Assembly (NCBI GenBank): GCA_019683805.1 | Contig: JADGHQ010000014.1 | Span: forward strand, 1 to 44,602 | Origin: Thermoleophilaceae bacterium | Lineage (GTDB): Bacteria; Actinomycetota; Thermoleophilia; Solirubrobacterales; Thermoleophilaceae | Reading direction: 5' to 3' | Length of the DNA stretch: 44,602 bases | Shown: positions 34,502-44,602 of the stretch, piece by piece | How the letters are laid out: every line of letters begins with the position of its first letter | Position numbering within the stretch: the stretch's first letter is position 1 | Program-made: the position numbers and the translations under genes | Notes under the pieces: model-generated | Databases searched by the model: none | Seen by the model: only the letters and a program-made list of their open reading frames with translations | What the model was told of the DNA's origin: nothing

Positions 34502-35368
34502 GTGGGCGCACGGATCATCGACGGCAGGGCGGTCGCGGCGGAGGTCCGCGAGCGCGTGCGCCGGCAGGTGCAGGAGGTGGTCGAGCGCCACGGCGTGCGC
34601 CCGGGGCTCGCGACTGTGCTGGTGGGGGAGGACCCCGCCTCGCAGATCTACGTCCGCAACAAGCGCCGCCTGAGCGAGGAGGCCGGCATGGTCTCGATCC
34701 ACCACGACCTTCCCGCCGAGGCGACGCAGGCGGAGGTCGAGGAGCTGATCCGCTCGCTCAACGCGGACGAGTCGGTCCACGGCATCCTGCTCCAGCTTCC
34801 CGTGCCGCCGCAGATCGACGGCGACGCGATGACGCGCCTGATCGACCCCGCCAAGGACGTCGACGGCCTCACGCCGCTCAACGCCGGGCTGCTGCTCCAG
34901 GGTCTCGACGGGCTCGTGTCCTGCACGCCCGCGGGGGTGATGGAGCTGCTGCGCGCGCACGACGTCGAGCTGGAGGGCGCCGAGGCGGTGGTGGTCGGCC
35001 GCTCGAAGCTCGTCGGGAAGCCGCTCGCGGCGCTGCTGCTCGCCGCGAACGCGACGGTCACCCAGGCGCACTCGCGCACGCGCGACCTGGCCGAGGTCTG
35101 CCGCCGCGCCGACGTCCTGATCGCCGCCGTGGGCGTGCCGCGCCTCGTGACGGCGGAGATGGTGAGGCCGGGCGCCGTCGTGATCGACGTCGGGGTGAAC
35201 CGCACCGCCGACGGGCTTGCCGGCGACGTCGACTTCGAGGCCGTGAAGGAGAAGGCGTCGCTGATCACCCCGGTTCCGGGCGGCGTCGGCCCGATGACGA
35301 TCGCGATGCTGCTGCAGAACGCCGCGACCGCCGCGGAGCGGCAGCTCGCCGCCCGCTCGCCGCGCTAA
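34502..35368 (+). CDS. folD: Methylenetetrahydrofolate dehydrogenase / cyclohydrolase
   Basis: Bifunctional enzyme interconverting 5,10-methylene-, methenyl- and 10-formyl-THF, 288 residues. Signatures: VGEDPASQIYVRNKRRLSEE with the catalytic Lys in YVRNK, HGILLQLPVPPQID, DVDGLTPLNAG, the Rossmann loop VVGRSKLVGKPLAALLL and the C-terminal PVPGGVGPMTIAMLLQNA. It provides formyl-THF for purines and fMet-tRNA. This links it functionally to glyA 7 kb downstream, whose riboswitch responds to formyl-THF shortage. Confidence 0.96.
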   Translation: MGARIIDGRAVAAEVRERVRRQVQEVVERHGVRPGLATVLVGEDPASQIYVRNKRRLSEEAGMVSIHHDLPAEATQAEVEELIRSLNADESVHGILLQLPVPPQIDGDAMTRLIDPAKDVDGLTPLNAGLLLQGLDGLVSCTPAGVMELLRAHDVELEGAEAVVVGRSKLVGKPLAALLLAANATVTQAHSRTRDLAEVCRRADVLIAAVGVPRLVTAEMVRPGAVVIDVGVNRTADGLAGDVDFEAVKEKASLITPVPGGVGPMTIAMLLQNAATAAERQLAARSPR

Positions 35369-41219: not shown

Positions 41220-42470
41220 TCACGTGCCGGGCACCGGGAAGGCCTCCGCGAGCTCCGAGACCCGGTCGCGGATCCGCTCGATCGAGCCCTCGTCGCCGCG
41301 GCGCGCGGCGTCGACCACCTCGTCGACGCAGCGCGCGATCTCCACCATCTCGGCCGGACCCATGCCGCGCGTCGTGACGGCCGGGGTGCCGAGGCGGATG
41401 CCCGAGGGGTCGAGCGGCTTGCGGGGGTCGAAGGGCACGGTGTTGCGGTTGCAGGTGAGCCCGGCGCGGTCGAGCGCCTCGGCGGCCTGGCCGCCGGTCA
41501 CGCCCTTGGCGGTGAGATCGATCAGGATCAGGTGGTTGTCGGTGCCGCCGGAGACGAGGTCGAAGCCGCGCTCTGCGAGCTCCTCGGCGAGCACGCGCGC
41601 GTTCGCGACCACGGCGTGCGCGTAGTCGCGGAAGGCGGGCTGCGCCGCCTCGTGCAGCGCGACCGCGATCGCCGCGGTCGTGTGGTCGTGCGGACCGCCC
41701 TGCAGGCCGGGGAACACGGCGCGGTCGATCGCCTGCGCGCGCCGTGCGTCGCACATGATCATCGCGCCGCGCGGGCCGCGCAGCGTCTTGTGCGTCGTGG
41801 TGGTGATCACGTCCGCGTGTCCGACCGGCGAGGGATGCGCCCCACCCGCGATCAGCCCGGCGATGTGCGCCACGTCGGCGGCGAGCAGCGCGCCGACCTC
41901 GCGCGCGACCTCCGCGAAGGCGGCAAAGTCGATCATGCGCGGGATCGCCGTTCCGCCGCACCAGATCAGCTTCGGCCGCTCGCGCAGCGCGAGCTCGCGC
42001 ACCTCGTCCATGTCGACCGTGCCGGTGTCGCGGCGCACGCCATAGCGCACCGGGCGGAACCACCTGCCGGTCGCCGACACCCCCCAGCCGTGCGTGAGGT
42101 GGCCGCCCGCCTCGAGCGACATCCCCATCACGGTGTCGCCCGGCTCGAGGAACGCCAGGTAGACGGCGAGGTTGGCCGGCGAGCCCGAGTAGGGCTGCAC
42201 GTTCGCGTGGTCGACGCCGAACAGGTCGCAGGCGCGCTCGATCGCGATCCGCTCGATCACGTCGACCACCGCCTGGCCCTCGTAGTAGCGGCGGCCCGGG
42301 TAGCCCTCGGAGTACTTGTTGGTGAGGACCGAGCCGGTCGCCCGGAGCACCGCCTCGGAGACGTGGTTCTCGGACGGGATCAGCGAGAGCGAGCGGCTCT
42401 GGCGCCGCTGCTCGCGGCCGATCAGGTACTCGATCCGCGTGTCCCGGCTGGTGAGCGCTGCAGTGGCCAT
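41220..42470 (-). CDS. glyA: Serine hydroxymethyltransferase
   Basis: PLP enzyme converting serine and THF to glycine and 5,10-methylene-THF, 416 residues. Signatures: SLIPSENHVSEAVLRATGS, NKYSEGYPGRRYYEG, VQPYSGSPANLAVY, VADVAHIAGLIAGG-type (ADVAHIAGLIAGG) and the PLP Lys in ITTTTHKTLRGPRGAMI. The C-terminus has GTPAVTTRGMG. ATG 42470 is fixed by GAGGAGG six bases upstream; a longer frame reading upstream runs into the riboswitch. Expression is probably controlled by the ZTP-type riboswitch in its leader. It acts with FolD in the one-carbon pool. Confidence 0.97.
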   Translation of the reverse strand: MATAALTSRDTRIEYLIGREQRRQSRSLSLIPSENHVSEAVLRATGSVLTNKYSEGYPGRRYYEGQAVVDVIERIAIERACDLFGVDHANVQPYSGSPANLAVYLAFLEPGDTVMGMSLEAGGHLTHGWGVSATGRWFRPVRYGVRRDTGTVDMDEVRELALRERPKLIWCGGTAIPRMIDFAAFAEVAREVGALLAADVAHIAGLIAGGAHPSPVGHADVITTTTHKTLRGPRGAMIMCDARRAQAIDRAVFPGLQGGPHDHTTAAIAVALHEAAQPAFRDYAHAVVANARVLAEELAERGFDLVSGGTDNHLILIDLTAKGVTGGQAAEALDRAGLTCNRNTVPFDPRKPLDPSGIRLGTPAVTTRGMGPAEMVEIARCVDEVVDAARRGDEGSIERIRDRVSELAEAFPVPGT

Positions 42471-42475
42471 GGGAA

Positions 42476-42493
42476 CCTCCTCGGAGTTCCGAG
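42476..42493 (-). promoter_or_regulatory. glyA ribosome binding site with adjoining small hairpin
   Basis: On the minus strand GAGGAGG (42482-42476) precedes the glyA ATG by 5 bases. CTCGG and CCGAG (42493-42489 and 42484-42480) form a small hairpin whose 3' arm overlaps the start of this site, so folding here could modulate ribosome access. Confidence 0.55.
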
Positions 42494-42519
42494 CCCGTCC
42501 GTCGAGGCGGGCGGACACG

Positions 42520-42597
42520 GTGCCCAGGCGCGCGGCTCTTTGCTTGCGAACGTCGCTCCCCGGTGGTCGATTCCACCTCAGGCGCCAGTCGCGACGG
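42520..42597 (-). ncRNA. ZTP (pfl-type) riboswitch upstream of glyA
   Basis: On the minus strand the leader shows the ZTP aptamer layout. P1 is CGTCGC/GCGACG (42596-42591 with 42556-42551), enclosing the conserved GACTGGCG. P2 is GGTGG/CCACC closed by AATCGA, followed by the invariant CGGGGAGCGAC. After a linker, the 3' conserved block GCCTGGGCA (about 42529-42521) can form the pseudoknot GGCG/CGCC with the first part. A TATGCT -10 places the transcript start at its 5' edge, and glyA is a classic ZTP-regulated gene. ZTP/ZMP accumulates when 10-formyl-THF is short, and binding normally raises expression. Confidence 0.88.
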
Positions 42598-42602
42598 GGC
42601 CG

Positions 42603-42608
42603 AGCATA
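42603..42608 (-). promoter_or_regulatory. -10 element (TATGCT) for the riboswitch-glyA transcript
   Basis: Minus-strand TATGCT lies 7-12 bases before the start of the ZTP aptamer. Unlike most promoters in this window it gives a long leader, of about 125 bases. Confidence 0.55.
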
Positions 42609-42748
42609 CCGCGCCTGCCGGCGCCCTCGCCAGCGCTCTCCGCGGCCCGCGCTGCGCCTGAGCGAAATCGGCGGGTCGTTCGGATCACCCGGAGGCGGCT
42701 CGCGGAACGACGCCGAGGGCGTCGCGGAGACGCTGCCCGCGCTGGGCG

Positions 42749-42754
42749 TATGAT
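42749..42754 (+). promoter_or_regulatory. -10 element (TATGAT) for the 42.8 kb gene pair
   Basis: TATGAT is followed by a leader of about 27 bases that contains GAGGAGG (42775-42781), 6 bases before the ATG. This is a conventional leadered arrangement, in contrast to most genes here. Confidence 0.55.
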
Positions 42755-42787
42755 CGCCGGAAGCAGCCGACCACGAGGAGGTCCGCG

Positions 42788-43012
42788 ATGGCGCGACTGA
42801 TCCGCATGGACTCGACCGGTCACTCCACGATCGCGGAGTGGACCGCGGGCGACGACGCCGCCTACGCGCGCGCGGTGGAGGCCTTCCACCGTGAGCTGGA
42901 CGAGGGCTACGTGGCCGTCGTCAGCGAGGGCGAGGGGCAGGCGGTGCAGGTGCGGGAGCTGCCGGTCGACGCCGATCTCGTGATCATGCGCCGCCCGATC
43001 GCGGGTGGCTGA
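42788..43012 (+). CDS. Small protein of unknown function
   Basis: A 74-residue soluble protein beginning MARLIRMDSTGHSTIAEW, with an acidic helix (DDAAYARAVEAFHRELDEGY), then beta-strand-like segments (VAVVSEG, AVQVREL, LVIMRRPI). The compact beta-alpha-beta-beta composition suggests a small folded domain. The strong Shine-Dalgarno sequence and good promoter suggest high expression. I do not recognise the family. It overlaps the next gene by eight bases, so the two are coupled. Confidence 0.75.
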   Translation: MARLIRMDSTGHSTIAEWTAGDDAAYARAVEAFHRELDEGYVAVVSEGEGQAVQVRELPVDADLVIMRRPIAGG

Positions 43013-43700
43013 TCGCGCCCTGACGGCGGACGCGCCCGCCCTGCGCGAGCTCGCCGCGGTGCCGTGGCGAGAGCTCGCCGGCGAGCGGACGCTCGCGCGG
43101 CGCGCGCGGCTGTGGAAGTGGTGGACCGTCGCGCAGACGGTCCCGTTCCTCGTCGCCGCCGCGGCGCTGCTCGCGCTCAACCCGCTCGCGGCGCCGGTCG
43201 CCGCGCTCGCGCTCGTGCACGCCTGGGTGATTCCGGAGCTGTACGCCCAGCGCGGGGCGAACGTGGCGCGGCCGCGCCCGCGCGCTCGCGGCCTCGGCGC
43301 CGGGGAGGAGGTGGCGCAGGGCCTGCTCGGCGACCTCCTCGACCACGAGCCGCGCGAGCTGCGGCGGCGCACCGGGCTGGCGCTCGAGCGCGGACGCCTG
43401 GGCGTCTGGCTCGTGGGCGAGGCGGGCGCCCTGCTCGTCCCGCCGGGCGGCTCGACCGTGCACTGCTTCTGCGTGCGGGCGACGGATTCCGAGCTGCCGC
43501 CGTCCGACCGGGTCGCGCACCTGCTGCTCGCGCTGCGCACCGACGAGCGCGGTTTCGCGACCGTCGCGAACCACGCCTTCGCGGGCGCCCCCTGGCGGCT
43601 GCGGCGGCGGCTCCACGAGCGCGCCCGACCGGCGCTCGACGAGGCCCGCCGTCAGAGCGCGCCGCGCTCGCGGCTTCGCGTCCTCGCGCGCTCGCGCTAG
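43005..43700 (+). CDS. Membrane protein of unknown function
   Basis: A 231-residue protein. A basic N-terminal region (RTLARRARLWKWWTVAQTVP) leads into two closely spaced membrane helices (about 42-80), then an Arg-rich linker. A soluble domain follows (GEEVAQGLLGDLLDHEPREL; GRLGVWLVGEAGALLVPPGG; HLLLALRTDERGFATVANHA). The stretch VGEAGALLV with the later VAHLLLALR suggests a defined fold, but I cannot name it. The GTG start lies within the upstream small gene. The pair probably works at the membrane; no function can be given. Confidence 0.75.
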   Translation: MADRALTADAPALRELAAVPWRELAGERTLARRARLWKWWTVAQTVPFLVAAAALLALNPLAAPVAALALVHAWVIPELYAQRGANVARPRPRARGLGAGEEVAQGLLGDLLDHEPRELRRRTGLALERGRLGVWLVGEAGALLVPPGGSTVHCFCVRATDSELPPSDRVAHLLLALRTDERGFATVANHAFAGAPWRLRRRLHERARPALDEARRQSAPRSRLRVLARSR

Positions 43701-43770
43701 GCCCGGAGCGGATCCGACCGGTGGACGGTGTTTCATTGCGCCGACGCTCGGGCATGGGGCCTGGGCGTGG

Positions 43771-43777
43771 AAGGAGG
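43771..43777 (+). promoter_or_regulatory. Ribosome binding site selecting a TTG start
   Basis: AAGGAGG lies 7 bases before TTG 43785, a near-ideal spacing. It identifies this TTG as the sigma-factor start despite the absence of ATG or GTG. Confidence 0.7.
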
Positions 43778-43784
43778 GAGCTCG

Positions 43785-44602
43785 TTGGAAGCGTCGGTCG
43801 CGGGTCGGCCGCCCGCGCCGCTCGGCGCCGGCCGGGCCGCGCTGCTGCGCCTGCGCGGCGACGAGTGGCTCGTCGCCCAGGTTCGCCGGGGCAGCGACTC
43901 CGCGTTCGAGGCGCTCGTCGAGCGCTACCGGCCGCGTCTGCTCGCCTTCTGCCGCCACATGCTGCACTCGCGCGAGGACGCCGAGGACGTCCTCCAGGAC
44001 GTCTTCGCGAACGCCTACCGGGCGATCCTCGCCGACGACCGCGAGCTGAACGTGCGGCCCTGGCTCTACCGGATCGCGCGCAACATGTGCCTGAAGCAGC
44101 TCGCCCGGCACCGCGTCGACGCTGGTGGCTCGCTCGCGGAGGTCGACGTCGCCGGGCTCGCCAGCACGATCGACGCCGTCCGCCTGCGCGAGCAGCTGCG
44201 GCAGGTGGTGGCAGACGTGCACGCGCTGCCGGAGAGCCAGCGCACCGCCCTGCTCATGCGCGAGATCGAGGGCCTCTCCTACCACGAGATCGCCGAGGCG
44301 ATGCAGACGACGGTGTCGAGCGTGAAGTCGCTGCTCGTGCGCGCCCGCGTCTCGCTCGCGGAGAGCGCCGAGGGTCGCCTGCTCGCCTGCGACGCGGTCC
44401 AGGTCGAGCTGCGCGAGGCGCGCGCGAGCGGGCGCAGGCCGTCCGCGCCCGTGCGGCGGCACGTCCGCGCCTGCGCGGCCTGTTCCGCGCGGGCGCCCGC
44501 TCACGCTCGGGCCGCGGCGGTGGCGCTGCTGGCGCCGCTCGCCCCGCTCCGCGACCTGCTCGGCAAGCTCGGCGTCGGCGCGGCGGCGGGAGGGGGCGGC
44601 GC
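43785..44602 (+). CDS. Sigma-70 family (ECF-like) sigma factor with C-terminal zinc-finger tail, 3' truncated by the window
   Basis: The frame runs from TTG 43785 to the window end without a stop (272 codons seen). Region 2 spans about 37-105 (ALVERYRPRLLAFCRHMLHS, EDVLQDVFANAYRAI, WLYRIARNMCLKQL). Region 4 spans about 140-195 (ALPESQRTALLMREIEGLSY, HEIAEAMQTTVSSVKSLL). There is no region 1.2 or 3. Beyond region 4, C202 and H226-x3-C230-x2-C233 form an anti-sigma-type (ZAS/zf-HC2) zinc motif, then an Ala/Leu-rich hydrophobic stretch. Sigma and anti-sigma-like elements thus appear fused. Total length is unknown. Confidence 0.88.
   Translation, partial: MEASVAGRPPAPLGAGRAALLRLRGDEWLVAQVRRGSDSAFEALVERYRPRLLAFCRHMLHSREDAEDVLQDVFANAYRAILADDRELNVRPWLYRIARNMCLKQLARHRVDAGGSLAEVDVAGLASTIDAVRLREQLRQVVADVHALPESQRTALLMREIEGLSYHEIAEAMQTTVSSVKSLLVRARVSLAESAEGRLLACDAVQVELREARASGRRPSAPVRRHVRACAACSARAPAHARAAAVALLAPLAPLRDLLGKLGVGAAAGGGG

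Follow-up and report, generated by a model that had tools for sequence, protein, structure and literature searches.

An earlier note, made from the letters alone, read a ZTP riboswitch controlling glyA on the minus strand of the present stretch of DNA (44,602 nucleotides, called the window here). The locus raises two questions: whether the element belongs to the ZTP class, and how it would act on the gene that follows it.

The aptamer, its promoter and its gene

The covariance search that the earlier note had suggested as a check gives a clear match to the Rfam model RF01750 (ZMP-ZTP): 60 bits against a gathering score of 39 bits, with an E value of 2.1e-7 and coverage of model positions 1-86 (cmscan, Rfam 15; Table 1). 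It is the sole gathering-level match to any Rfam family within the window and the sole ZTP match in a scan of the whole genome (2.56 Mb). These Rfam scans of window and genome found no further ZTP riboswitch, including upstream of folD. Alignment and sequence together give a complete conserved core, consisting of RACUGGCG, P2, CGCCUGGGCA, and the J1/2-L3 pseudoknot GGCG/CGCC. On the minus strand, GACTGGCG lies at 42590-42583 and GCCTGGGCA spans the P3 loop and 3' strand. All core motifs are found where the earlier note had placed them. Judged by its sequence, the element truly belongs to the ZTP riboswitch class and stands before glyA; Kim et al. 2015 is reportedly the validation paper for the class.

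The aptamer is co-oriented with a one-carbon gene, glyA, which starts 45 nt 3' of it on the same strand. GlyA is a full-length match to its families (PF00464, E 3e-150, 500.7 bits; PRK00011, 572.5 bits), and the former upholds the identity that had been read for the controlled gene. The reported presence of folD in the window also holds. The 2010 description of the pfl motif lists both glyA and folD among its genes (PMC2864571), so pfl/ZTP RNAs before these genes have been known since then and the arrangement here is ordinary. On the far side of the riboswitch, an ECF-type sigma factor gene (43728-44600, plus strand) runs divergently from glyA to the window end, with a frame at 43005-43700 between the two genes.

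Table 1. Positions of the riboswitch parts, the leader and the genes in the window
Feature	Position	Strand	Description	Basis
Probable -10 element	42603..42608	minus	TATGCT	Sequence; TANNNT clustering in 82 ZTP-glyA leaders
ZMP/ZTP (pfl) riboswitch aptamer	42515..42602	minus	Full length	Rfam RF01750
P1	42596-42592/42555-42551	minus		Alignment and sequence
P2	42577-42573/42566-42562	minus	GGTGG/CCACC	Alignment and sequence
P3 core	42536-42534/42524-42522	minus		Alignment and sequence
Pseudoknot	42586-42583 with 42530-42527	minus		Alignment and sequence
Pseudoknot strand and P3 3' strand	42519..42530	minus	CGCCTGGGCACC; proposed anti-start strand without ligand	Free folding; relatives
Linker	42481..42518	minus	~38 nt, internal hairpins	Terminator scan negative
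Shine-Dalgarno and spacer	42471..42480	minus	GGAGG (42480-42476), TTCCC	Sequence
glyA	41220..42470	minus	Serine hydroxymethyltransferase, 416 aa	Pfam PF00464; NCBIfam PRK00011
folD	34502-35368	opposite to glyA		

The hexamer TATGCT begins 18 nt 5' of the conserved GACUGG, i.e. at -18. Across 82 ZTP-glyA leaders, TANNNT starts mostly between -22 and -17 from the conserved RACUGGCR, and its density is 5.1 matches per position in the interval -30 to -15 versus 0.25 per position farther upstream. Because the motif clusters at the matching place, TATGCT is very probably a real -10, as had been claimed for the element on account of its expected place, and the transcript very likely begins at the base of P1, about the aptamer 5' end. 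No sigma-70 type -35 passes the consensus scan.

The genome encodes three serine hydroxymethyltransferases (SHMTs), and only the glyA of the window carries the riboswitch. The other two genes (L195, G000:C97:21315-22535; L200, G000:C65:15646-16854) encode proteins 54% and 50% identical to the window GlyA; neither the whole-genome scan nor their upstream sequence places a ZTP aptamer before them. The GlyA tree groups the window protein with those of other ZTP-controlled genes and puts the other two SHMTs in a separate deep branch, where one adjoins, but stays outside, a second ZTP-controlled clade. A matching split is seen in another genome of the window's family (G212), with one SHMT gene behind a ZTP riboswitch and one without.

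Predicted pairing of the aptamer 3' strand with the glyA start region

The 3' strand GGGCACC (42525-42519) pairs with GGTTCCC (42477-42471) at -10.4 kcal/mol with one C/U mismatch, and both sequence and duplex computation agree with the complementarity first described. Taken alone, the window duplex is unremarkable: against the same strand, 12% of riboswitch-free glyA start regions equal or better it. The control set consists of 49 glyA start regions in which no riboswitch was recognised, used in place of a genome-wide Shine-Dalgarno spacer background; a few diverged riboswitches may hide among them because recognition was by motif pattern. The case for a start-region duplex is carried by the relatives and by folding, not by the window duplex alone.

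The relatives nearest in the GlyA tree fall into a clade of four (SH-aLRT 99) and a neighbouring clade of six. Those that share the window's GlyA type show GGAGGTGCCC or a close variant directly before the start codon, the complement of the aptamer TGGGCACC. The match of GGGCACC to GGTGCCC is perfect in several of these relatives and nearly so in others. Where TGGGCACC or a one-base variant faces GGTGCCC(A), the duplexes reach -16.6 (L008), -15.7 (L041), -14.5 (L027), and -14.2 kcal/mol (L046), and L033 reaches -17.5 kcal/mol with TGGGCACTTC. For a 9-nt strand, six relatives give duplexes of -12.9 to -16.6 kcal/mol, a strength attained by 0 of the 49 control regions. Likewise, the strands of L008, L041, L046, L031, L027, and L033 each pair more strongly with their own start region than with any of the 49 ZTP-negative ones. 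In the class set, pairing is stronger with a leader's own partner than with a swapped one (permutation p 0.005); the same comparison in the named actinomycete set is not significant (p 0.77). Covariation is weak because the relatives share ancestry and their pairing changes are, by inspection, mostly one-sided rather than compensatory. The distance from TGGG to the start codon is 56 nt in the window versus 30-34 in near relatives.

The unconstrained fold of the window leader recovers the pairing unprompted, as a longer helix. It joins GCCUGGGCACC with GGUUCCCAUGGC, except for the C/U mismatch and a bulged U of the AUG, while an upstream UCC pairs over the 5' part of the Shine-Dalgarno. The predicted helix covers the Shine-Dalgarno, spacer, AUG, and start of codon 2, and recruits the pseudoknot strand CGCC besides GGGCACC. 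Since it uses the pseudoknot strand and P3, it excludes the ligand-binding fold. In silico, the leader thus has the property expected of a translational ON switch, with CGCCUGGGCACC paired to the start region in the free fold and that pairing exclusive with the bound fold.

Imposing the P3 and pseudoknot strands raises the mean unpaired fraction of the Shine-Dalgarno from 6% to 42%, and start-region accessibility goes from 0.16 in the free leader to 0.52 with the aptamer imposed. No change this large is seen among 300 shuffled leaders, and most of the window leader's change disappears when either strand is altered in silico. Twelve class leaders with the window's GlyA type show a mean change of 0.20 versus 0.04 in shuffles (p 0.005). 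The signal does not exceed the control in the other glyA subfamily of the class or in the named actinomycetes as a group, and is not supported in ZTP-serC leaders (p 0.14), which makes it lineage-specific. Two ideas were rejected: anti-start pairing as a general property of ZTP-glyA leaders, which is weak over the whole set and missing from the named actinomycetes, and an anti-start model for the serC leaders. Folding energy was discarded as evidence of structure, the leader being GC-rich and no lower in energy than its shuffles. The computed switching is support rather than proof, because these energies are ordinary, the calculations take in neither pseudoknot nor ligand energies nor the order of folding during transcription, and the relatives are not independent of one another.

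Proposed control of glyA and competing explanations

The ZTP riboswitch of the window probably activates translation of one SHMT gene out of three when 10-formyl-tetrahydrofolate runs low. In the unbound state, the 3' part of the aptamer would pair with the Shine-Dalgarno, spacer, and AUG and block the ribosome. P3 and the pseudoknot could not coexist with this pairing; accumulating ZMP or ZTP would stabilise them and keep the 3' strand occupied. The start region would then be more open, therefore more GlyA would be made, and one-carbon units would be supplied. Binding of the ligand, the activating effect in the cell, and action at the level of translation are inferred; gene activation is the usual outcome for ZTP riboswitches (PMC9481103). 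The presence of three SHMT genes suggests a reserve enzyme that the riboswitch controls during folate stress. Plausibly, one or more SHMTs serve in housekeeping, and the reserve copy comes into use when ZMP/ZTP reports that formyl-folate is scarce.

This is largely the translational switching model of the earlier note. Complementarity in the relatives, in-silico switching, and a negative terminator scan speak for it, and its helix has to be lengthened to reach the AUG and the beginning of codon 2. For ZTP-glyA or ZTP-serC leaders at large the model does not hold.

Control could instead fall on transcription and not on ribosome access, if the linker or the early part of the gene held an unrecognised intrinsic terminator or a Rho-dependent one. 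The best-studied ZTP mechanism, that of the C. beijerinckii pfl RNA, is control of transcription termination (PMC10907184), many pfl RNAs are overlapped by terminators (PMC2864571), and the linker here has GC-rich hairpins. However, the terminator scan finds no hairpin with a U tract in 42400-42800 or between aptamer and start, and no intrinsic terminator overlaps or follows the aptamer end as it would in a transcription-terminating riboswitch. The negative scan agrees with the absence of a terminator that had been stated from the letters. In close relatives, moreover, only about 18-22 nt separate the aptamer end from the start codon, too short for a separate terminator, and transcriptional control is unlikely. 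It is quite improbable that the aptamer is real but its control weak or lost, with the mismatch and longer linker having loosened an ancestral switch and local hairpins setting ribosome access. The aptamer scores well over the cut-off, and the predicted opening of 0.36 is among the larger of 81 leaders and above all 300 shuffles, although the mismatched duplex is weaker than those of several relatives (-10.4 versus -14 to -17 kcal/mol), the window linker is longer than theirs, and the Shine-Dalgarno is only about 42% unpaired even with the aptamer imposed.

Translational activation is the preferred reading. A wider proposal is evenly balanced: a lineage of actinobacterial glyA genes may have a compact ZTP switch whose pseudoknot/P3 strand also serves as the anti-Shine-Dalgarno and anti-AUG strand without a separate expression platform, one accessory SHMT being controlled and the others left free.

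Distribution and comparison with known systems

ZTP riboswitches occur in 67 of 299 genomes of the class and in only 5 of the 31 genomes of the window's family. The genes behind the 90 class loci read include serC (40), glyA (29), an oxidoreductase gene (13), and a purH-like AICAR formyltransferase gene (5). Commonest among them is serC, for phosphoserine transaminase (L005, L014, L019, and 37 others), and no paper met in a literature search explicitly mentions a ZTP riboswitch in front of it. The oxidoreductase of the 13 loci (L051 and 12 more, mostly in family f9) resembles the small subunit of NADPH-dependent glutamate synthase and has an iron-sulfur domain; how it would connect to one-carbon metabolism is not evident. 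Among 80 named glyA relatives, most of the actinobacterial ones have a ZTP riboswitch, and those labelled myxobacterial and deltaproteobacterial are without one. The named relatives suggest that the genome belongs to Actinomycetota. Three loci from one genus of the window's family (L173, L174, L193; genomes G166, G299, G280) encode a GlyA ~72% identical to that of the window and have no ZTP riboswitch, which was therefore lost there or never gained.

The element is an ordinary known one, correctly recognised in a blind reading of the raw sequence, and its proposed translational ON mechanism is reasonably supported. Compared with the pfl motif RF01750, it is a full-length match with all conserved elements before a one-carbon gene, and the aptamer shows no difference. 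The published mechanism work that was found centres on transcription termination, whereas the platform predicted in the window acts on the start codon region. Other actinobacterial ZTP-glyA leaders (Streptomyces, Actinomadura, Nonomuraea, and others) share the gene and the order -10, aptamer, glyA; their 3' strand is often TGGGT, their linkers are often longer, and as a group their start-region pairing is not above chance. The ZTP-serC leaders of the class carry the same kind of aptamer before a gene whose product makes the serine used by GlyA but, unlike the window, have no general start-region pairing. The relatives in the window's lineage, with very short leaders (~20 nt between aptamer end and start codon), are suited to a clean test of a translational version of the ZTP riboswitch.
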